Of a DNA stretch of 62,082 bases, positions 43,602 through 57,038 are shown piece after piece. A program made the translations under genes and the position numbers. The notes under the pieces were generated by a model. The model saw only the letters and a program-made list of their open reading frames with translations, was not told where the DNA came from and ran no database searches. Source of the DNA: Thermodesulfovibrionales bacterium (GTDB lineage: Bacteria; Nitrospirota; Thermodesulfovibrionia; Thermodesulfovibrionales; Dissulfurispiraceae); contig JAGUWD010000033.1 of the NCBI GenBank assembly GCA_020062545.1, positions 1 through 62,082 on the forward strand, given 5' to 3'. Every line of letters starts with the position of its first letter. The stretch's first letter is position 1.

Positions 43602-44066
43602 TTATCTTCTCCATCCTGACCATGCAGGGATGCCATTTTCATCCCTGAGCTTCAGTACATTATCGCCTTTCTTCACCTCTGCTGCGATAATTGCGGGTTT
43701 GCCCATCATTGTTACCCTTGAACCTTTGACTTCGATCTTATCGCCTTTTTCGATTTTTGTATCGAGTCTTTCAATATACCAGCCCGGGCCGAGGTGGACG
43801 GATACAGTCTCCTTGTCTGTTTTTACAGTGATATGAACGCCGTAAGACATGCCTTTCATTGGAGTGATCTTATCAACCGATTCGACTGTGCCTGATATAG
43901 TCTCTACCGTTGCGGGATTGTACATCCTCTGATACTGTGTACCCATGCCCCATCCGCTGCTTCCACGCCATTTCATCATACCTTTCATTGGCTGTGCAAA
44001 GGCAAATGAAGCAGCCAAAACCAATGATAATGCCACCAATAGACTTAAAACTTTTCTCGTTCTCAT
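43602..44066 (-). CDS. Exported small beta-domain protein (paralogue of 815-1315)
   Basis: Clean signal peptide (residues 1-24, AFA cleavage), a short Met/Gly/Trp stretch (KGMMKWRGSSGWGMG), then the beta domain: ISGTVESVDKI, VHLGPGWYIERLDTKIEKGDKIEVKGSR, PAIIAAEVKKG, LRDENGIPAWSGWRR. The same pattern occurs in 815-1315. AAGGAGGT lies 4 bp before the ATG. It is expressed from a sigma-54 promoter (44127-44141). The Met-rich segment and its Spy-like co-regulated partner suggest an envelope or metal stress role; this is inference. Confidence 0.75.
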   Translation of the reverse strand: MRTRKVLSLLVALSLVLAASFAFAQPMKGMMKWRGSSGWGMGTQYQRMYNPATVETISGTVESVDKITPMKGMSYGVHITVKTDKETVSVHLGPGWYIERLDTKIEKGDKIEVKGSRVTMMGKPAIIAAEVKKGDNVLKLRDENGIPAWSGWRR

Positions 44067-44126
44067 AACTACCTCCTTGAGCCGGATTTTTTTAAAATAT
44101 AGCACTTTAACTATATCTTTGAAATT

Positions 44127-47569: not shown

Positions 47570-47696
47570 GACCGTAATCCGTAAAGAAACCCTATCAAAA
47601 GGAAAGCAGGCACCTGCTTTGCTTGATTACTGATTATGGTAATGATTGTCCTTTAATCGCATTTTTGTTGTACAATTAAAAAGGGGAGAAGACGGG

Positions 47697-48818
47697 GTGA
47701 CCAACCTTTATCAAATTTTTTTTCTTAACCTTGCACTGGGTCTAATATTGGGCTTTGTATTCCATAGGTCTGACCTTTGCATGGCCGGAATATTCCGCGA
47801 CATATTTCTTCTGAAGCGCACCTTCCTGCTAAGGATACTTTATTTGCAGGTGATTGTTACAATGGCGCTTTTCTTTATCGCAAAGAAAGGAGGGCTTATC
47901 GGCCTCTATCCCCCACCAAATCTTAACATCGCATCACTTGGGACACTGGCCGGAGGCATGATATTCGGAATAGGGATGGTGCTGGCAGGGGGTTGTGTAA
48001 TAGGAACCCTTTATAAAATGGGCTCAGGAAGTGTTATCAGCATTATTGCATTTGCAGGACTTATTATCGGAAGCGCTGTCTTTGCAGAGTTCTACCCCTT
48101 CTGGGCAGAGTTTTCGAAAAGAACCAGGGTCTCTGAAGCTGTATTGCTGCCGCAGCTTATTAATGAACATTTTATTATGCTCCCCATCCTGTTTATATCA
48201 TCAATGCTTATTTTCAGATGGATGCGCTCCAAAAAATTGCATCAGAAGGCCTATGCAGAGGGGTATATCCATCCGTGGAAGGTTGTAATTATCATTGCCC
48301 TCTTGAATTTGATCATTTATATAAGCTCCGATATGCCTATGGCTGTTAGTACCGGATATGCCAAAATTGCTGCATATCTGGAAAGGATCCTTGTTCCGGA
48401 TCATTTTGAAACTGTAGCATTTTTTAAAAAGGAATCATATTCTGTTTTACATCCGGATAGTAAAGCGTTAATTGCAGGTGGTCCTGGTGCTAAGTTTGAC
48501 CACATATCCTCCACCGAGATTTCATTAATCGTAGGGGTCATATTCGGGTCTTTTATATCCGCAATCTCGATAGGAGAGTTCAAACTGACTCTAAGTGCGC
48601 TCCCCCCTTTGAGACAGAACATATCTGCCTTATTGGGTGGCATACTACTTGCTTTAGGTTCGAGAATGGCAGGGGGGTGCAATGTGAAGTTTCTCATGAG
48701 CGGTCTTCCCCTGCTTTCCATTCAGGCATTCTTGTTTCTTTTCGGGATGCTGCCCGGTGCCTGGCTTGGAACTTATTTATTCAAAAAATTTGTTATTAGC
48801 TACGACAAGGAGGGGTAG
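47697..48818 (+). CDS. YeeE/YedE-family sulfur transporter 1
   Basis: Membrane protein of 373 residues with about 9-10 helices in two repeats. SDLCMAGIF (Cys28), VLAGGCVIGTL and RMAGGCNVKF carry the conserved Cys that relay thiosulfate or sulfane sulfur in YeeE (TsuA). GTG start at 47697 behind GGGGAG; the longer frame from 47646 has no ribosome site. The next gene is tusA-like, the typical partner. It opens an operon that ends in a kinase and an NtrC-type regulator. Confidence 0.88.
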   Translation: MTNLYQIFFLNLALGLILGFVFHRSDLCMAGIFRDIFLLKRTFLLRILYLQVIVTMALFFIAKKGGLIGLYPPPNLNIASLGTLAGGMIFGIGMVLAGGCVIGTLYKMGSGSVISIIAFAGLIIGSAVFAEFYPFWAEFSKRTRVSEAVLLPQLINEHFIMLPILFISSMLIFRWMRSKKLHQKAYAEGYIHPWKVVIIIALLNLIIYISSDMPMAVSTGYAKIAAYLERILVPDHFETVAFFKKESYSVLHPDSKALIAGGPGAKFDHISSTEISLIVGVIFGSFISAISIGEFKLTLSALPPLRQNISALLGGILLALGSRMAGGCNVKFLMSGLPLLSIQAFLFLFGMLPGAWLGTYLFKKFVISYDKEG

Positions 48819-48820
48819 AG

Positions 48821-49099
48821 ATGGCAGATAAATCAGGGATCAATCTTGATGTAATTAACCTGGATATTCGGGGACAGATATGTCCTGCATGCCTCCTCAT
48901 TTCCTTAAAGGAAATTAATAAGCACAAAGGGCTCCTGAGGGACGGCGAGGCAAACCTGATAGTAAAGACTGACCACAGGGATGCCACAAGGACGATTCCT
49001 GATGCAGCCATTGCAATGGGATATGCAGTTTTTGTGGAAAAGAAAAAGGGGTACTACGAAATTACGGTAGGGCGAAAAGATGAAGACCAAAAAGCATGA
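48821..49099 (+). CDS. TusA-like sulfur carrier 1
   Basis: SirA/TusA-fold protein of 92 residues. LDIRGQICPACLLISLKEINKH carries the active Cys in CPAC; most TusA have CPxP, so the second Cys is a variant that could form a disulfide or trisulfide. Residues after 75 (RKDEDQKA) are a charged tail. It overlaps the kinase gene by 20 bp, so sulfur transport and sensing are translationally coupled. Confidence 0.87.
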   Translation: MADKSGINLDVINLDIRGQICPACLLISLKEINKHKGLLRDGEANLIVKTDHRDATRTIPDAAIAMGYAVFVEKKKGYYEITVGRKDEDQKA

Positions 49100-50378
49100 A
49101 AACCACACATATATTATAGAAAGTGAAGATATGGAGAGAAAGAACGAGATGCTTCTTCAATACATCAAGGAGAAGGTAAACCAACTCCTGCAGATTATGG
49201 GGACAAAACCCCTGAGGGATGAAGAGCTTAACGACGAGAGCCTTATTGCCATAGACCCTATAGGCATCATCGCTGAATCCTTTGAACAGGTGCTCGATCA
49301 CCTGAAAGAGAGCAACAGGCAGTTGCAGCTTGCGAGGGATTATCTGCAAGCTGTCTTTGACACTGCAGGCGTTGGCATATCTATTATTGACAGGGATTTG
49401 AAAATAATCAAATGCAATGAAAAGCAAAAGGAACTCCTGGTAAACGGCGTATCGCAGATAGAAGGCAGACACTGCTATGAGGTTTATTGCGGGATAGATT
49501 CTCCTCCTTTAATATGTCCTGCCATAGAAACACTGGAGATGGAGCGTGCAGTATTTTTAAAAGAGGTTACTAAGAAGGGAAAGGTTTTTCAAATAGTCAC
49601 ATCGCCCCTCAGGGATAGGAGCGGAAGCATATCCGGCGTCATTGAGGTGTCTATGGACATCACGGAAAAAAAGAGGGCACTGGAGGCGATGTGCCAATCA
49701 GAAAAGTTAGCTGCTGTAGGACAGCTTGCAGCAGGCATTGCCCATGAATTGAACAATCCCCTTGGCAATATCCTCGGTTATGCAAAGCTGCTTCTTATGG
49801 AGCAAGATACTACGGAATTTCAGAAGAACAGGCTGGAGGTTATTATAGAGCAGGCAAAGAGAGGCAGCAGCATCATAAAAGGGCTGCTTGAATTTTCACA
49901 CCAGAAGATGCCTGTTTTCGAAAGGATTTCCCTTAATGCGTGCATAGAGCTGGCACTCCGGTCCCTGAGCGATGAAATCAGAAGCAACAATATAGAGATT
50001 TTGACAGGTCTTGGTACTGTTCCATATGTAATGGCCGATCCAAAACAGATGGAGCAGGTAATCTATAACATACTCCTCAATGCTATACAGGCCCTGGAAG
50101 GAAAAGGAGGCATTGTGGAGATAAAGAGCGAGGCATTAAACGGTTCTGTGGAGGTAACCATAAAGGATAACGGCCCGGGCATACCAAAAGAGCATTTGAG
50201 CAGAATCTTCGAGCCTTTTTTTACAACAAAACCTGTAGGGAAGGGTACCGGGCTTGGCCTCAGTATATGCGCAGAGATATTGAAAAAGCATAGCAGCAAT
50301 ATCTGTGTTGAGAGCGAAGTGGGGAAAGGGACTAAATTTTCCTTCAGGATAATGGGTGGAGTAACGGGCAATGTTTGA
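49080..50378 (+). CDS. Soluble PAS histidine kinase of the sulfur island
   Basis: 432 residues without membrane helices. A coiled N-terminal region (1-85), one PAS domain (about 87-200) with Cys132, Cys137 and Cys146 (RHCYEVYCGIDSPPLICP), H-box GIAHELNNPLGNILGY (His222), and GHKL domain with NAIQALEGKGG, DNGPGIP and GTGLGLSICAEI. The Cys group makes a thiol/persulfide or metal sensor plausible. The regulator gene overlaps its end by 8 bp. Confidence 0.9.
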   Translation: MKTKKHENHTYIIESEDMERKNEMLLQYIKEKVNQLLQIMGTKPLRDEELNDESLIAIDPIGIIAESFEQVLDHLKESNRQLQLARDYLQAVFDTAGVGISIIDRDLKIIKCNEKQKELLVNGVSQIEGRHCYEVYCGIDSPPLICPAIETLEMERAVFLKEVTKKGKVFQIVTSPLRDRSGSISGVIEVSMDITEKKRALEAMCQSEKLAAVGQLAAGIAHELNNPLGNILGYAKLLLMEQDTTEFQKNRLEVIIEQAKRGSSIIKGLLEFSHQKMPVFERISLNACIELALRSLSDEIRSNNIEILTGLGTVPYVMADPKQMEQVIYNILLNAIQALEGKGGIVEIKSEALNGSVEVTIKDNGPGIPKEHLSRIFEPFFTTKPVGKGTGLGLSICAEILKKHSSNICVESEVGKGTKFSFRIMGGVTGNV

Positions 50379-51708
50379 TATCCTGGCAATAGAAGATGAC
50401 CAGAGGATGAGGGAGCTTCTAAAAGAGATACTCAGTAGGAATGGGTGCTCTGTATTTACTGCAAAGAATGGTGAGGAAGGGATCGGCCTTCTCGAGAGAA
50501 GGACATTTGATCTTATTATTACGGATCTCAAGATGCCTGATATAGACGGCATCACCATCCTCTCAAAGGCACGGGAGCTTAATCCCGAGAACCTTGTTAT
50601 TGTAATTACCGCATACGGCACCGTGGAATCAGCTATAGAGGCCATGAAACTCGGCGCCTATGACTATATCCAGAAGCCCTTTGAGCCGGAGGAGCTGATG
50701 CTGGTTATAAAGAAGGCACTGGACTATAAAAGGCTTGCCGATGAAAACTTAAGGTTATCAAGCCAGCTCGAATCCTGCAGGTCAGAGGAGTTGATAGGGA
50801 CAAGCCCGCGGATGACCGAGGTTAAGATACTTATGGAAAGGATATCGCCTCTCGATACTACTGTAGTGATAGAAGGTGAGACAGGAACAGGGAAAAACCT
50901 TGTTGCAAAGACAATCCACAGGATAAGCAAAAGGTCATCAGGCAAATTTCTGAGCATAAACTGTGGTGCACTCACAGAGACATTGCTTGAATCAGAGCTT
51001 TTCGGACATGAAAAAGGGGCATTTACCGGAGCCATAAAACAGAAACAGGGTCTTTTTGAGGCTGCACATGGAGGGACACTGTTCCTTGATGAGATAAACA
51101 ATGCGAGCCTCAACATGCAGATAAAACTCCTTAAGGTATTGGAAGAGGGAAGGATTATGCGTATTGGCTCCACAGAATCCGTTCCTGTAGATGTCCGCAT
51201 AATTGCTGCAAGCAACATCCCGATTAAAAAAGAAGTGGACGAAGGGAAGTTCAGGCAGGATCTGTACTATCGCCTCAAGGTGGTTACTGTTACTATGCCT
51301 TCTCTCAGAGAAAGGCGTGATGATATACCGCTTCTGGCGCATCACTTTCTTGACAGGTATCGTGAAAGGTTCAACAAGGAGATCCAGGGCTTCACAACAG
51401 AGGCAATGGATACTCTTCTTACTTACGATTGGCCAGGCAATGTGAGGGAGCTTGAACATGTGGTCGAGAGAGGAGTTATATTAGAACATGGCAAGAAGAT
51501 AGGTATATCTTCCCTTCCTGCAGAACTTCGTTCAAGGCCGAAAGAGATCATGTCGTCGAAAAGTGTAATGAGGCTTGAAGATATGGAAAGGCAATTAATC
51601 CAATCCGCATTGAGGTTTTTCAATGGCAAGAGAGATTCTGCTGCCCGTGCATTGGGTATAAGCACTGCCACCCTCTGGAGAAAGCTCAAAAAATATAATC
51701 TTGATTAA
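50371..51708 (+). CDS. NtrC-type activator of the sulfur island
   Basis: Receiver with phospho-Asp52 (LIITDLKMPDIDG), AAA+ with EGETGTGKN and GAFTGA (about 216-221), HTH at the end (RDSAARALGISTATLWRKLKKY). Length 445. The GAFTGA loop shows it activates sigma-54 polymerase, and a sigma-54 promoter with twin upstream palindromes lies in the 142 bp between it and the rhodanese gene. It is the obvious candidate to switch on that operon. Confidence 0.92.
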   Translation: MFDILAIEDDQRMRELLKEILSRNGCSVFTAKNGEEGIGLLERRTFDLIITDLKMPDIDGITILSKARELNPENLVIVITAYGTVESAIEAMKLGAYDYIQKPFEPEELMLVIKKALDYKRLADENLRLSSQLESCRSEELIGTSPRMTEVKILMERISPLDTTVVIEGETGTGKNLVAKTIHRISKRSSGKFLSINCGALTETLLESELFGHEKGAFTGAIKQKQGLFEAAHGGTLFLDEINNASLNMQIKLLKVLEEGRIMRIGSTESVPVDVRIIAASNIPIKKEVDEGKFRQDLYYRLKVVTVTMPSLRERRDDIPLLAHHFLDRYRERFNKEIQGFTTEAMDTLLTYDWPGNVRELEHVVERGVILEHGKKIGISSLPAELRSRPKEIMSSKSVMRLEDMERQLIQSALRFFNGKRDSAARALGISTATLWRKLKKYNLD

Positions 51709-51718
51709 CTCAAATTTC

Positions 51719-51749
51719 TTTCACTTTGAAATAATCTTTCATTTTGAAA
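51719..51749. promoter_or_regulatory. Twin TTTCA-N3-TGAAA sites (activator binding)
   Basis: TTTCACTTTGAAA (51719-51731) and TTTCATTTTGAAA (51737-51749), two near-identical palindromes 18 bp apart centre to centre, 44-75 bp upstream of the sigma-54 -24 box. The arrangement is that of an NtrC-type enhancer. Confidence 0.65.
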
Positions 51750-51792
51750 TGCTCACCAATCAAACTTTTTAGGAATATCACCATTTTCCCTC

Positions 51793-51808
51793 TGGCATAT
51801 CTATTGCT
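51793..51808 (+). promoter_or_regulatory. Sigma-54 promoter of the sulfur operon
   Basis: TGGCATATCTATTGCT with exact GG/GC spacing. It is 43 bp before the ATG of the rhodanese gene and shares TGGCAT with the two other sigma-54 promoters in the window. Confidence 0.8.
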
Positions 51809-51850: not shown

Positions 51851-52849
51851 ATGAAGGGGAAGACTTTATTGGCAATGGTGATGATGGTGGCCTTTGTGGC
51901 CGTGTCAACTTATGCCTATGGATGGGCAAATCCGGATCTTTTAATGAACCCAGACGATGTGGAAAAGGTTGCTGCAAAACCTGACTGGGTAATCCTTGAT
52001 TGCCGCGGCAAAGAGGCATATGAGAAAGGGCATATCCCCGGAGCCATAGTTCTTGATTGCAGGAAGGACCTGAGGGATGGGACAGAAAGGGTATTGAAGC
52101 CTGCCGCACTGGAAAAGATACTCGGGAATGCAGGCATCAGTAATGACAAGCATGTTGTTGTATATGGAGATGCAAAGCAGATTGTTCATGCATCCGTGGG
52201 GTTCTGGATACTTGAATACATAGGCCATGATAAGACTCATTTTTTTGACGGAGGCCTCACTGAATGGAAAGCGGCTGGAAAACCTGTAACTACAGAGCCG
52301 AGGACTCTGCCGCCGGCAACATTCAAGGCCCATGTTGTTCCATCCAGGTATGCTCCAACTGAGGAGATACTGAAGATTGCAAAGGGCGAGACAAAGAGTG
52401 TTCAGGTTATAGATGCAAGGACAGAGAAAGAATATAATGGCAAAGAGTCACGCTCTTTAAGGGGAGGCCATATTCCAAATACAAACATAAATGTATCCCA
52501 CGAGCTTACATACGACAAACGCACAGGAAAACTGCTTCCCGAAAAGTTTTTAGAGAAATTTTATGGCAATCTCGATAAGAGTAAAAGGACAATAGGGTTG
52601 TGCCAGACAGGCTCCCGTTCTACACTCACATATCTGCAGTTGAGGCTTATGGGTTTTAAAGACCCTGCAAACTATGATGATTCATGGATTGTGTACGGCA
52701 ACAGCATTTATCCACCATATCCAGTGGAGAACGAACAATGGATAAACCTTGAAGGCCTTGTGAAAATGTCGGCTGACATAAAGAAACTTAAGAAAGAGAT
52801 CGAAGACCTGAGAAAAGAGTTAAAACTGCCGCCGAAAGAAGCACATTAA
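51851..52849 (+). CDS. Exported two-domain rhodanese
   Basis: Periplasmic sulfurtransferase of 332 residues. Signal peptide (1-23). First rhodanese domain (27-145) has VVVYGDAKQ where the active Cys should be, so it is inactive; the second (165-295) has GLCQTGSRST with Cys251 in the loop. A coiled coil closes the protein (306-328, KKLKKEIEDLRKELK). It likely accepts sulfane sulfur from thiosulfate, polysulfide or elemental sulfur outside the cytoplasm. ATG at 51851 after GGGAGG; first gene behind the sigma-54 promoter. Confidence 0.88.
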   Translation: MKGKTLLAMVMMVAFVAVSTYAYGWANPDLLMNPDDVEKVAAKPDWVILDCRGKEAYEKGHIPGAIVLDCRKDLRDGTERVLKPAALEKILGNAGISNDKHVVVYGDAKQIVHASVGFWILEYIGHDKTHFFDGGLTEWKAAGKPVTTEPRTLPPATFKAHVVPSRYAPTEEILKIAKGETKSVQVIDARTEKEYNGKESRSLRGGHIPNTNINVSHELTYDKRTGKLLPEKFLEKFYGNLDKSKRTIGLCQTGSRSTLTYLQLRLMGFKDPANYDDSWIVYGNSIYPPYPVENEQWINLEGLVKMSADIKKLKKEIEDLRKELKLPPKEAH

Positions 52850-52867: not shown

Positions 52868-53386
52868 ATGGGTGAACAAATAAAAATAGTTCCGCTCGGT
52901 GAAGTTGACGGGGGTATCATGATGGAAGTTGCAACTCAGGTCAGCATAGTTTTTGGAATAACTGCAACAGTTAATGAGATGCAGCGCTGTCATGAATCTG
53001 CCTATAACCACCAGAGGAACCAGTATTCTGCCGAGGCCCTTTTAAAATTTATGGAAGGAATTCGGGGGGAAACCCCTCACAGGTTGCTCGGCATCACCGA
53101 TGTTGACCTCTATATTCCGGATTTGAATTACGTATTTGGCCTTGCAGATAAATCCGGTGCTGTTGCCGTTGTTTCTGTTTCGAGATTTAAAAAAGGGAAT
53201 AGGAAGGTTGTCGAGAGGGCTGTTAAAACTGCAGTCCATGAGATTGGACATACATACGGGCTTGGCCACTGTCATGACAACAAATGCGTGATGTATTTCT
53301 CTTACAACCTTTCGGATACTGACTACAAGGGTAAAGAATTCTGCATCAAATGCCAGAAGATACTGGGCAGAAGGAATATCACATGA
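52868..53386 (+). CDS. Archaemetzincin (AmzA-like zinc peptidase)
   Basis: Cytoplasmic metallopeptidase-like protein of 172 residues. HEIGHTYGLGHC (His124, Glu125, His128, His134) is the metzincin zinc site. It is followed by the family's extra zinc site with Cys135, Cys140, Cys159 and Cys162 and by the Met-turn VMYFS. The family is mainly archaeal and of unknown role. Being inside a sulfur operon is unexpected. Its stop overlaps the next start (ATGA), so it is truly part of the operon. Confidence 0.9.
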   Translation: MGEQIKIVPLGEVDGGIMMEVATQVSIVFGITATVNEMQRCHESAYNHQRNQYSAEALLKFMEGIRGETPHRLLGITDVDLYIPDLNYVFGLADKSGAVAVVSVSRFKKGNRKVVERAVKTAVHEIGHTYGLGHCHDNKCVMYFSYNLSDTDYKGKEFCIKCQKILGRRNIT

Positions 53387-53685
53387 AACTCGGCATTTTA
53401 GTAAACACAGACAGAAACCTCGCTCATATATTGGGCGTCACAAAGGCGGCTATAGAGAGCGGGCATGAAGTCATAATATTCAATATGGATGAAGGGGTCA
53501 GACTTTTCAGGGAACCAGCTTTTAGAGACCTCTGTAATACCAAAGGTGTATCAATGAGTTTTTGCGACCACAGCACGCATGTTCTGAATGTATCAAAGGA
53601 AGGTATCCCTAAAGAAATAATCTGCGGCAGTCAGTACAACAATGCTGTTATGAACCATGATGCAGACAGAATTATTGTTTTGTAA
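53383..53685 (+). CDS. DsrE-like protein
   Basis: 100-residue DsrE/TusD-like alpha/beta protein: KLGILVNTDRNLAHILGVTKAA, GHEVIIFNMDEGVRLF and several Cys (LCNTKG, SFCDHS, IICGSQ). DsrE-family proteins carry persulfides between TusA and the sulfur enzymes. Start at 53383 overlaps the previous stop. First of a trio with the next two small genes. Confidence 0.8.
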   Translation: MKLGILVNTDRNLAHILGVTKAAIESGHEVIIFNMDEGVRLFREPAFRDLCNTKGVSMSFCDHSTHVLNVSKEGIPKEIICGSQYNNAVMNHDADRIIVL

Positions 53686-53696
53686 GGAGATCGGGT

Positions 53697-53978
53697 GTGG
53701 ATAAAAAGAAGATTGCAGTAATCGTCAGAGACAGGCAGGCAGAGGCATTCAGGATGAGCGTGGGTCTCACTGTCCTTGACGACATAATAGATGTTTTTAT
53801 AACAGAGTCTATCGGGGATGATAAGGAGACCCTTACTCAACTTGATGGGGTAAAGGAGATGAAGGAACTGGGCATCATAAATCTCTTCACAACTGTTAAA
53901 GGGACAGACTTTGAATTTATAACTGTAGAAGATATGGCAGGGAAGATCCTTGAATATGACCACATATTGCCGTATTAA
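53697..53978 (+). CDS. DsrF/TusC-like protein
   Basis: 93-residue protein with the DsrE-like fold pattern KKIAVIVRDRQAEAFRMSVGLTVLDDIIDVFI and DILP/YDHILPY near the end. It has no Cys, as in structural (TusC/DsrF) subunits. GTG start with AAGGAGA seven bases before. Position between DsrE- and DsrH-like genes supports the call more than sequence alone. Confidence 0.7.
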   Translation: MDKKKIAVIVRDRQAEAFRMSVGLTVLDDIIDVFITESIGDDKETLTQLDGVKEMKELGIINLFTTVKGTDFEFITVEDMAGKILEYDHILPY

Positions 53979-53987
53979 GGAGGATGA

Positions 53988-54158
53988 ATGAAGGTTTTGC
54001 ATTTGCTTAAATCTGAGCCTGACGAAACTGCAAGGAAAATAATGGAAATACATAAAGCAGAAAATGAAGTGAAGGTCATTGACCTTACAAAGGGCGATTT
54101 TTCTTATGAGAGTATCATAGAGGACATATTTAGTTATGACAAAGTCATATCGTGGTAA
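53988..54158 (+). CDS. DsrH/TusB-like small protein
   Basis: 56-residue product, starting KVLHLLKSEPDETARK and ending YDKVISW. TusB/DsrH proteins also begin with a short LH-L strand and end in a Trp, but are longer (about 95). It follows a perfect AGGAGG 5 bp before its ATG and lies 9 bp after the DsrF-like gene. It has no Cys. It completes a compact DsrEFH-like set; the assignment is tentative because of the small size. Confidence 0.6.
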   Translation: MKVLHLLKSEPDETARKIMEIHKAENEVKVIDLTKGDFSYESIIEDIFSYDKVISW

Positions 54159-54191
54159 TAAAACTGTAATAAAAAATAAAGGAGGGCAAAA

Positions 54192-54356
54192 ATGGGTGAG
54201 GTAAGGGGAGGTCTGACATTACCATGGCTTTGGGTAGCAGTTGTTATTGCCTTTTTAGCATTGGGCTTTATACTGCCGCCCCTTGATAAACCATTAAGGG
54301 ACCTTGCCAAACAGGCAGAGCAGATGAAGACAATGCAAGAACATATGTCGCAGTAA
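54192..54356 (+). CDS. 54-residue membrane protein
   Basis: Unrecognised. An N-terminal cytoplasmic stretch (GEVRGGLTLPWLW), one membrane helix (about 12-30, VAVVIAFLALGFILPP) and a charged C-terminal helix (PLRDLAKQAEQMKTMQEHM). Strong Shine-Dalgarno (AAAGGAGGG) and normal spacing in the operon show it is real. It might anchor or link the neighbouring exported protein and transporter. Confidence 0.7.
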   Translation: MGEVRGGLTLPWLWVAVVIAFLALGFILPPLDKPLRDLAKQAEQMKTMQEHMSQ

Positions 54357-54391
54357 AAAGATTTTTAAATAAAAACACGGAGGTGTAAAAA

Positions 54392-54871
54392 ATGAAAGCG
54401 AAAAAGAAAATAATAGTATTGGCGGTTATGCTGTTATTGGCATTTTTGACAATGCCTCTGATAGGCGGATTAAAAACAACACAGATTGAAGTTTCATTGG
54501 TATCCGTGGCACATGCCGAGGATGCCAAGGGTTTTAAATGGATACCGAGAAGGCCGGGAATTACAAGGGCACAGATAGCCCTCGGAAGGGCTGTTACAAT
54601 ACCCTTTGAATTTACAGTTACAGGAAATGTGAAAAAAGTGAGGTTTGAATTGCCAAAGAAGTTTACAAGCCTCGGCATTGATATTCTGGAGGATGAAGTG
54701 GCTGTCAAGGGCGGCAAGGCTTCCTCGGCTGTGTTGTTCACTGTACCCCCGGGAAAACCACTGGGGAAATTTGACATGGTGGTCACGGCAAAGGATGCCG
54801 CAACAGGAAAAGAGATAGGCAAAGGCACTATTCCATTTATGCTTTTGCCGCCGGGCGTAGGCGGATGTTAA
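54392..54871 (+). CDS. Exported protein ending in GGC (SoxY-like sulfur carrier candidate)
   Basis: 159 residues. A long leader (cleavage after AHA, about residue 42) precedes an Ig-like beta domain (VTIPFEFTVTGNVKKVRFELP, then AVLFTVPPGKPLGKFDMVVTAKD). The last residues are PPGVGGC: the only Cys of the mature protein is the final residue, on a flexible Gly arm. SoxY carries sulfur on the Cys of a C-terminal GGCGG arm and has an Ig-like fold. I therefore infer a SoxY analogue that receives sulfur from the rhodanese and delivers it to the YeeE-type transporter downstream. SoxY homology itself is not evident. Confidence 0.55.
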   Translation: MKAKKKIIVLAVMLLLAFLTMPLIGGLKTTQIEVSLVSVAHAEDAKGFKWIPRRPGITRAQIALGRAVTIPFEFTVTGNVKKVRFELPKKFTSLGIDILEDEVAVKGGKASSAVLFTVPPGKPLGKFDMVVTAKDAATGKEIGKGTIPFMLLPPGVGGC

Positions 54872-54900: not shown

Positions 54901-56307
54901 ATGAGCGACTTTGATTTTGGCATAAAAGGCTGGTGGGACACGTGGTACAAAAAATTCTTCAGGGAAAAATGGCCACTCTGGATAGCAGCCATATTCATGG
55001 CGCTCTCAGGGATAATAGCATACGGAGTAGCCGTATGGTCGCTGGCAAGGACAGTCTCTGGAGAAAATCCATATGATCAGGCAAAACCACTCGGGACATT
55101 CCTTGGACTCAAAGAACTTGGCGGCATTATCAACAGTTTTCTTGGCAAGATAGGTCTGCCCCACTATCCTTTCAACGGCTATATATGGCCTGACGGGCAG
55201 ACCATAAATTATTTTGTCCAGTATCCCAATCCGTTTCTTGAGCCGACAGCAGGGACGATGCTCGGCATACTCTTCGGAGGGCTGATCGCCGCACTTTTGG
55301 CAAAGGAGTTTGCACTCAAGGTGCCGCTTGACAAGACGGAGTACGGACTTGCGCTTTCCGGCGGTGTGATGATGGGTATAGGCGCGGTCTTTATGTTCGG
55401 TTGTCCACTGGTAAGTACAACCAATATAGGGGCTATGAGTGTCCAGGCCATTGAAATGGTTATAGGCATGACCATAGGTTCGTTCTTTGGAGCAAAAATA
55501 ATTGTCTGGCTTGAGAAGCGAAGGCTGGCATCCCTCGCATGCGCTGCTGATGGCGCAGGCTATAGACCGTTAATGCATTTTGAAAAGACAAAGACCATAT
55601 GGCCTAAAATGCCGGCTAATGCGGACGGAGGCGAACCATTTGGCATCAGATTTCAGCCCGTAATGGCAATAATTCTTACAGTCGTTATGTTTATAGTTCT
55701 GGCACGGTTTACCAAGATCGGCTACCCTGCCCTCTCCATGTCATTTCTGGCAGCAACACTTACAGGGTTTGCAATGCAGAGGGGAGGCATGTGCTTTGCC
55801 TATGCATACAGAGAGCCATTTTTAACAGGCTTCAGCGATATGTCGAGGGCAATGGCGCTACTCTATGCACTGTTGGTAATAGGTTTTCTTCCATTCAAAC
55901 TTCTTGGCTCTGTGTCCCCTGATATTGCCTATGCTGAGATATTCGCCATAAGCCCTGCAGGTATCGGAATACTCCTTGGTTCAGCCCTGTTCGGGCTCGG
56001 CATGGCGCTCAATGGAGCGTGCGTCAGCGACAGCCTCTGGAGAACTGCTGAAGGACAGGTAAAGATATGGGTAGGTCTCTTAACACTCATCTGCGTTTCC
56101 TCATGGTTATTCCCGATGAGAGAGGAGACATGGTTCAAGACAATCTTTGCGCCATACGGCTCAAAGAATATAACGGATGTTTATCTGCCCCAGATATTCG
56201 GGAGCTATCCCATAGCGGTCGTTTTTACAATAAGTGTAGTGCTTTTATGGGCGCTTTTGATGACATGGTTTGCAGGCAGGACATTCAAAAAATATATGGA
56301 AGGATAG
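54901..56307 (+). CDS. YeeE/YedE-family sulfur transporter 2
   Basis: 468-residue membrane protein with two pseudo-repeats of helices. Conserved Cys positions are Cys168 (MFGCPLVST), Cys298 (QRGGMCFAYAYREP) and Cys374 (LNGACVSDSLW), which in YeeE form the sulfur relay through the membrane. It is longer than transporter 1 because of an extra N-terminal periplasmic loop (about 55-115). Next to a TusA gene, so sulfur taken in probably goes onto TusA. Confidence 0.9.
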   Translation: MSDFDFGIKGWWDTWYKKFFREKWPLWIAAIFMALSGIIAYGVAVWSLARTVSGENPYDQAKPLGTFLGLKELGGIINSFLGKIGLPHYPFNGYIWPDGQTINYFVQYPNPFLEPTAGTMLGILFGGLIAALLAKEFALKVPLDKTEYGLALSGGVMMGIGAVFMFGCPLVSTTNIGAMSVQAIEMVIGMTIGSFFGAKIIVWLEKRRLASLACAADGAGYRPLMHFEKTKTIWPKMPANADGGEPFGIRFQPVMAIILTVVMFIVLARFTKIGYPALSMSFLAATLTGFAMQRGGMCFAYAYREPFLTGFSDMSRAMALLYALLVIGFLPFKLLGSVSPDIAYAEIFAISPAGIGILLGSALFGLGMALNGACVSDSLWRTAEGQVKIWVGLLTLICVSSWLFPMREETWFKTIFAPYGSKNITDVYLPQIFGSYPIAVVFTISVVLLWALLMTWFAGRTFKKYMEG

Positions 56308-56317
56308 GAGGGGTGAA

Positions 56318-56554
56318 ATGACAACAGAAGTGAAAATTGACAAGGTGCTCGATGTTAAAGGCCTGGTATGTCCGAGGCCTATGGTAATGACCATGAATAC
56401 ATTAAAAACAATGGAAAAGGGGCAGGTTCTTCATGTTTTAGCAAATGACAGCAGCACCAAGCACAGCATCCCGGCCCTCTGCGAGAGGAGCGGCTATAAA
56501 CTTGTGGAGATGAAAGACGAGGCCGGTACTATCAGCTTCATAATTCAAAAATAA
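56318..56554 (+). CDS. tusA: TusA-like sulfur carrier 2
   Basis: 78-residue TusA with the canonical VKGLVCPRPMVMTMNTLKTM motif (CPxP, active Cys). Small alpha/beta fold, cytoplasmic. It should accept sulfur from the transporter directly upstream and pass it to DsrE-like proteins. A second Cys (ALCERSG) is common. Start at 56318 behind GGAGGGG. Confidence 0.92.
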   Translation: MTTEVKIDKVLDVKGLVCPRPMVMTMNTLKTMEKGQVLHVLANDSSTKHSIPALCERSGYKLVEMKDEAGTISFIIQK

Positions 56555-56579: not shown

Positions 56580-57038
56580 ATGTATAAGAATATTTTATTG
56601 CCGACAGACGGCTCGGAACTCTCGGAGGAAGCAATAAAAAGCGGTGTTGCCCTTGCTAAACTCCTTAATGCAAAGGTTACAGGGCTTTATGTGATACCAA
56701 AACCTACTTCAGGCGACATCTGGGATGTATGGGCACCCGAAAACACCGAAGAGGGAAGAATGTTCAGGACTAAGTTCGAGGCATCATTTGAATGTGTGGC
56801 AACAAGATACATATCAGTAATTGAGAATGCAGCAAAAGAGGCAGGAGTGCCCTGCGAATGTTTTTATGTAAAAAGCGAGTCCCCTTCAGAGGAAATAATA
56901 AAAACAGCAGTGGAGAAAGGCTGCGACCTCATCTTTATGGCATCCCACGGCAAGAGAGGTATAGGCGCTATCCTCGGAAGTGTGACAACAAAGGTTTTGA
57001 TGAGTTCAAATGTCCCTGTGCTGGTACATAGAGTATAA
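56580..57038 (+). CDS. Universal stress protein 2
   Basis: UspA-family protein of 152 residues: NILLPTDGSELSEEAIK and the ATP-binding ASHGKRGIGAILGSVTTKVLMSSNVPVLV. It has a longer loop (about 45-85) than the first stress protein of the window. Last gene of the sulfur operon, followed by a terminator. Its role in the sulfur system is unclear. Confidence 0.9.
   Translation: MYKNILLPTDGSELSEEAIKSGVALAKLLNAKVTGLYVIPKPTSGDIWDVWAPENTEEGRMFRTKFEASFECVATRYISVIENAAKEAGVPCECFYVKSESPSEEIIKTAVEKGCDLIFMASHGKRGIGAILGSVTTKVLMSSNVPVLVHRV

Follow-up and report, generated by a model that had tools for sequence, protein, structure and literature searches.

The segment at positions 51719-51808 of the DNA stretch analyzed here (hereafter, the window; 62,082 nucleotides of a Thermodesulfovibrionales genome) with high probability controls a sulfur operon by way of sigma-54; the activator would be the adjoining two-component regulator, and the proposed sulfur input to this regulator would come via the YeeE-like membrane protein YeeE1 and the sulfur carrier TusA1. 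The paired palindromes and the sigma-54 promoter in this segment are very probably the switch for expression of this sulfur-handling operon. A circuit in which a sulfur cassette leads to a sigma-54-driven operon had been proposed by a sequence-only reading of the locus, and is supported by the recurrence of the site at all 25 comparable loci, its co-occurrence with the regulator and the preserved synteny. The locus provides a specific candidate switch, site and signal chain by which anaerobes that live on intermediate sulfur compounds may sense them.

Anatomy of the locus

Two perfect copies of the dyad TTTCA-N3-TGAAA can be read directly in the control region, TTTCACTTTGAAA at 51719-51731 and TTTCATTTTGAAA at 51737-51749 (both on the plus strand). 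These are the only perfect copies in the window and two of the six in the whole 2.62 Mb genome, and their centers are 18 bp apart. The center of the second dyad is located 51 bp 5' of the GG of the -24 element in the predicted sigma-54 (-24/-12) promoter, TGGCATATCTATTGCT at 51793-51808 (+), which contains the GG-N10-GC core. All these coordinates are exactly those given by the sequence-only reading. Sigma-54-like matches with at most two mismatches number 15 in the 62-kb window, compared to 17 expected, so that such a match is not significant by itself and the case rests on position and conservation. Upstream dyad sites, which here are in tandem and phased to one face of the helix, are a feature of sigma-54/NtrC-type promoters, and the genome encodes RpoN (PF04552, 1.7e-61) as well as DsrA. 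Elsewhere in the window, a perfect sigma-54-like site (TGGCATGTCAATTGCT, 122-137) lies upstream of a ZraP-like gene (178-582; 7.6e-11), a position that agrees with the known sigma-54 control of zraP, and another sigma-54-like site (TGGCATAGCAGTTGCA, 44141-44126, minus strand) precedes a gene for a small secreted, weakly MamS-like protein (43602-44105, minus strand).

Upstream of the control region, four collinear genes form a cassette. YeeE1 (47646..48818, +; PF04143, 2.4e-51), the presumed entry point for thiosulfate or sulfane sulfur, matches the solved YeeE of Spirochaeta thermophila (4.6e-24) and starts either at the TTG at 47646 or further downstream; it contains the three cysteines that characterize YeeE/SoxT transporters (PMC11582611), and these relay residues are invariant in the 20 aligned orthologs that cover them. 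TusA1 (48821..49099, +) still matches the TusA family (PF01206, 1.2e-10) but has CPAC in place of CPxP; CPAC is invariant in every cassette TusA1 that covers the motif, and TDHRDATRTIP is invariant in the cassette proteins as well. The histidine kinase (49080..50378, +; PAS, HisKA and HATPase domains) is soluble, with no transmembrane segment. Four cysteines of its PAS domain (Cys112, 132, 137 and 146) are invariant in 20 cassette kinases, and Cys112 and Cys137 are missing from both outgroup kinases. The response regulator (50371..51708, +) combines an N-terminal receiver domain (PF00072), an AAA+ domain with GAFTGA (PF00158) and a Fis-type helix-turn-helix (HTH; PF02954), with orthologs at all cassette loci. 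The Cys-rich PAS domain and the NtrC-type activator with an intact GAFTGA just before the sites, both noted previously, are thus borne out. The TusA1 and kinase frames overlap, as do those of the kinase and the regulator, which supports a single transcript for the YeeE1-TusA1-kinase-regulator cassette, the synteny of which is kept across relatives.

Several observations concern yeeE genes. In three relatives (L041, L044 and L046), an additional dyad pair is located 5' of yeeE1, with a divergent M54 gene in L044 and L046, which suggests local autoregulation at these loci. The sigma-54-like site before yeeE1 in the window (AGGCACCTGCTTTGCT, 47608) is not conserved, so we make no general claim of autoregulation, and a sigma-54-like site within yeeE1, at 48638, was rejected as a consequence of the protein motif GG[IM]LLA, the synonymous positions of which are not kept. 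A second, TsuA-like YeeE (L133:1441-2490; C19:127742-128713 in the genome that contains the window) scores 254 bits when TGA is read as selenocysteine. Its in-frame TGA codons coincide exactly with two of the three conserved relay-cysteine positions, and this protein is therefore probably a selenoprotein transporter; genes for paralogs of DsrE and of the conserved small protein sm93 are located 5' of it.

The putative target operon starts with a secreted two-domain, SseA-like rhodanese (51851..52849; PF00581, 2.8e-29, two stretches), followed, all on the plus strand, by an archaemetzincin-like M54 metalloprotease (52868..53386; PF07998, 3.2e-29), a DsrE-like protein (53383..53685; PF02635, 4e-4, slightly below the curated cut-off) and sm93 (53697..53978), which is kept 3' of DsrE in relatives. 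After a gap of 414 bp (53978-54392) come a secreted protein with an invariant C-terminal GVGGC (54392..54871), a YedE-like membrane protein, YedE2 (54901..56307; PF04143, 6.1e-35), a canonical TusA with CPRP (56318..56554; NF001423, 1e-17) and a universal stress protein (56580..57038; NF011581, 2.7e-6, below the cut-off), which is syntenic in close relatives and probably the last gene. A second promoter may lie within this gap, and the YTD genes are therefore only candidates for co-transcription with the rhodanese gene. In its AlphaFold model, the GVGGC protein is an Ig-like beta-sandwich, and a SoxY/Z homology is not claimed, there being no SoxYZ among its 50 best Foldseek matches; its end resembles a free sulfur-carrier arm, and several relatives encode a second paralog that ends in EC[LM]C or has CMC near the end.

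Conservation, co-occurrence and helical phasing of the paired site

Kinase orthologs with more than 50% identity are present in approximately 14 other genomes of the phylum, nearly all within the YeeE-TusA-kinase-regulator cassette. Searching 84,980 species genomes with a TusA1 alignment yielded 23 loci, all from Nitrospirota MAGs except for L094, labeled Caldimicrobium, and L079, which is labeled only as an uncultured bacterium and lies on a contig that also belongs to G040 of this phylum. The sequence-only reading had made its proposal depend on conservation of the palindromes where the regulator occurs. All 25 related loci with a readable promoter region, from about 24 genomes that represent several families and one outlier, retain the pair along with the sigma-54 site. 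The pair has a gap of 4-6, centers 17-19 bp apart and 0-3 mismatches of 20; in the same place 3' of it, before the operon beside the regulator, is a site of the TGGCAY-N5-TTGCW type with 0-1 mismatches. For 24 of the 25 regions, none of the 200 dinucleotide shuffles equaled the native pair; L076 is the exception because the search was limited to 450 bp and its perfect pair sits farther upstream.

A blind scan for the pair (gap 5) across 296 genomes of the phylum demonstrates its association with the regulator. Pairs with at most one mismatch were detected in 12 genomes, each of which has the regulator cassette; accordingly, such a pair is present in 12 of the 21 cassette genomes vs none of the 275 others (Fisher p = 4e-16), with eight other genomes in the scan having 2-mismatch pairs only. 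The distribution of YedE2 is similarly narrow (12 of the 296 genomes, every one with this circuit). In 10 of these 12 genomes, a single contig carries YedE2, the dyads and at least the 3' end of the regulator gene. The two others are G211, whose YedE2 is on a different contig from the cassette, and G254, where the contig is interrupted but the 3' end of the regulator gene, the pair and operon genes are seen on two further contigs.

The distance between the second dyad center and the -24 GG ranges from 51 to 222 bp (51, 54, 63, 64, 74, 75, 86, 87, 88, 97, 108, 122, 132, 175 and 222) and falls on multiples of 11.3 bp. Over periods of 9.5-12.5, the phasing (Rayleigh R=0.844, n=19; bootstrap 11.15-11.6) was matched by 0 of 400,000 uniform random sets; related genomes yield distances that are partly interdependent, and a subset of 14 lineages gives p=5e-5. 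The GG-to-start-codon distance, used as a control, showed no periodicity (p=0.78). The period is within the published in vivo looping repeats of approximately 11 to 11.6 bp per turn (PMC1762422, PMC8501960). Such quantization would follow from a requirement that the activator and the polymerase meet on one side of the helix, and can be seen as the evolutionary imprint of helical phasing in uncultured bacteria.

Neither a chance pair nor an RNA element would be expected to show helical phasing relative to the promoter. It might be supposed that the inverted repeats act at the RNA level, as a hairpin for termination or processing where the regulator gene ends, a notion that draws on L043, L045 and L082, in which the dyads are mirror images that make up one long AT-rich inverted repeat. 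Yet, no terminator-like hairpin was found between the regulator and the operon, the RNA folding of the twin-dyad region is ordinary relative to shuffles (z = -0.03), and the pair travels with the operon promoter, not with the regulator end. In L037, where approximately 3.5 kb separate the regulator and the rhodanese gene, the latter has both the sigma-54 site and the complete pair next to it, and one solitary dyad is left at the regulator end; L042 and L094 likewise contain intervening DNA, and there too the pair remains at the operon promoter. We therefore reject the RNA reading as extremely unlikely. It is somewhat less improbable, but still very unlikely, that some other enhancer-binding protein or transcription factor occupies the dyads and the neighboring regulator acts elsewhere. 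A genome of this group encodes about 14-17 strong NtrC-type regulators, so another one could in principle bind the dyads; however, across the 296 genomes, the pair tracks this regulator even at loci with different downstream genes, and the extra pairs 5' of yeeE1 fall within the same cluster. Specifically, at L047, L048, L049 and L052-L055, where YeeE-TusA or YTD genes are absent and another rhodanese operon is served, the pair is still kept with the kinase and the regulator. At the distant kinase-regulator loci L051 and L056, no pair was found; their regulators are 54-55% identical, and the HTH turn reads GID versus GIS. The persistence of the pair through rearranged and altered loci and its absence from the distant ones indicate that it goes with this regulator and with the promoter under its control. 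Binding of the dyads by the adjoining regulator, and transcription of the operon from the sigma-54 promoter, are strongly suggested.

Proposed signal flow

Under the proposed mechanism, YeeE1 would probably admit thiosulfate or sulfane sulfur and pass it to TusA1 (CPAC), the load of which would be read by the soluble kinase through the four-cysteine PAS domain. The phosphorylated regulator would then bind as dimers to the two tandem 13-bp dyads, centered approximately 51 and 69 bp 5' of the -24 GG, oligomerize, and contact the sigma-54 polymerase at 51793-51808 from the same helix face, and its GAFTGA AAA+ domain would open the promoter of the rhodanese-M54-DsrE-...-YedE-TusA (YTD-like) operon. 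We infer with moderate confidence that the signal is a sulfur compound; a direct relay of sulfur from TusA to the kinase is speculative. That YeeE1-TusA1(CPAC) is a dedicated sensor and not a supply line, such that external thiosulfate or sulfane sulfur moves via the YeeE cysteines to TusA1 and on to the four-cysteine PAS, is a serious possibility, albeit one that falls short of probable. If so, a transporter-coupled sulfur relay would be the input to a two-component sigma-54 switch, and a sulfur-disproportionation-type (YTD-like) operon would for the first time have a regulator assigned to it.

The circuit could also function as described with YeeE1-TusA1 being only a regulated sulfur-uptake pair and the PAS cysteines of the kinase sensing, for example, redox state or a metal, which we consider possible but rather doubtful. 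Cys-rich PAS domains are common among anaerobes, the contact between TusA1 and the kinase is hypothetical, and one genome (G290, L047) retains the kinase, the regulator and the pair without adjoining YeeE-TusA. Against this stands the coupling of YeeE-TusA to kinases even in sister modules (L186-L188, L190-L195 and L197) that contain hybrid or longer kinases and lack both the NtrC-type regulator and the pair. The TusA proteins of these modules have CP[AS][ST] and TDNRDA vs CPAC in the cassette, so that the second cysteine goes with the sigma-54 branch; the sole exception outside that branch is L189 (G192), where CPAC is present but the TDHRDATR motif is not, and no kinase was detected. Moreover, the YeeE-like SoxT1B is a proven signaling element in Hyphomicrobium. 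The sister modules apparently have the same input wired to another output.

Comparison with known systems

The sequence-only reading further held that sigma-54 control of sulfane sulfur trafficking is not well described. This is too broad because TspS/TspR and TcsS/TcsR of Acidithiobacillus exert sigma-54 two-component control of sulfur metabolism (PMC6335251), and, in Cupriavidus and Acinetobacter, the sigma-54 activator FisR turns on genes for sulfide/persulfide oxidation (PMC7315123); an input by YeeE-TusA and a YTD-like output do appear undescribed. The literature searched includes no report of a sigma-54 switch with a YeeE-TusA input or of any regulation of the YTD cluster: regulation is nowhere mentioned in the main text of a recent survey of sulfur disproportionation, and none of the sulfur terms searched is present in the Desulfovibrio vulgaris sigma-54 regulome paper. 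As far as searched, the combination with the YeeE-TusA input, the TTTCA-N3-TGAAA pair and the control of a YTD-like cluster seem to be new.

The YTD cluster of sulfur disproportionators consists of YedE-related, TusA, DsrE-related and conserved unknown genes (PMC8780430, PMC12998232) and is a candidate marker of sulfur disproportionation metabolism. The operon described here includes YedE-related, TusA, DsrE-related (slightly below the Pfam cut-off) and two unknown genes, with the rhodanese and M54 genes added. It is assigned to the YTD type by gene content. YedE2, a candidate ortholog of the canonical YTD YedE, is only 25-31% identical to the TusA-adjacent YedE of Thermodesulfobacteria, and a search at E<=1e-30 in 297 genomes from the phylum of the Caldimicrobium-labeled MAG retrieved nothing.

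Among the regulators, TspS/TspR of Acidithiobacillus caldus is likewise a sigma-54 two-component system that acts on an adjoining sulfur operon via an upstream palindrome, but in a different phylum, with a single TGTCCCAAATGGGACA site, sox-II as the target and no YeeE-TusA input described (PMC6335251); here, the site is a TTTCA-N3-TGAAA pair and the target a YTD-like cluster without a sox gene. FisR is a one-component protein that senses in its own N-terminal domain, in contrast to the receiver domain and separate kinase of the present system. On the input side, the SoxT1B-SoxR system of Hyphomicrobium denitrificans employs a YeeE-like transporter, with three essential cysteines, to inform a regulator encoded next to it about external sulfur, and TusA has been suggested as a possible intermediary (PMC11582611); its output, however, is an ArsR-type repressor and not a kinase with a sigma-54 activator. 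In YeeE-YeeD (TsuA-TsuB) thiosulfate uptake, as here, a YeeE with a three-Cys relay is adjacent to a TusA-type protein with a carrier Cys (PMC11073785), but YeeD has CPxP compared to CPAC in TusA1, which is coupled to a kinase, and YeeE1 scores 113 bits against the TsuA model (cut-off 400). SoxT1B provides a precedent for a YeeE-type signal unit and YeeE-YeeD for YeeE-to-carrier transfer. The proposed circuit would link YeeE-type import to phosphorelay signaling.
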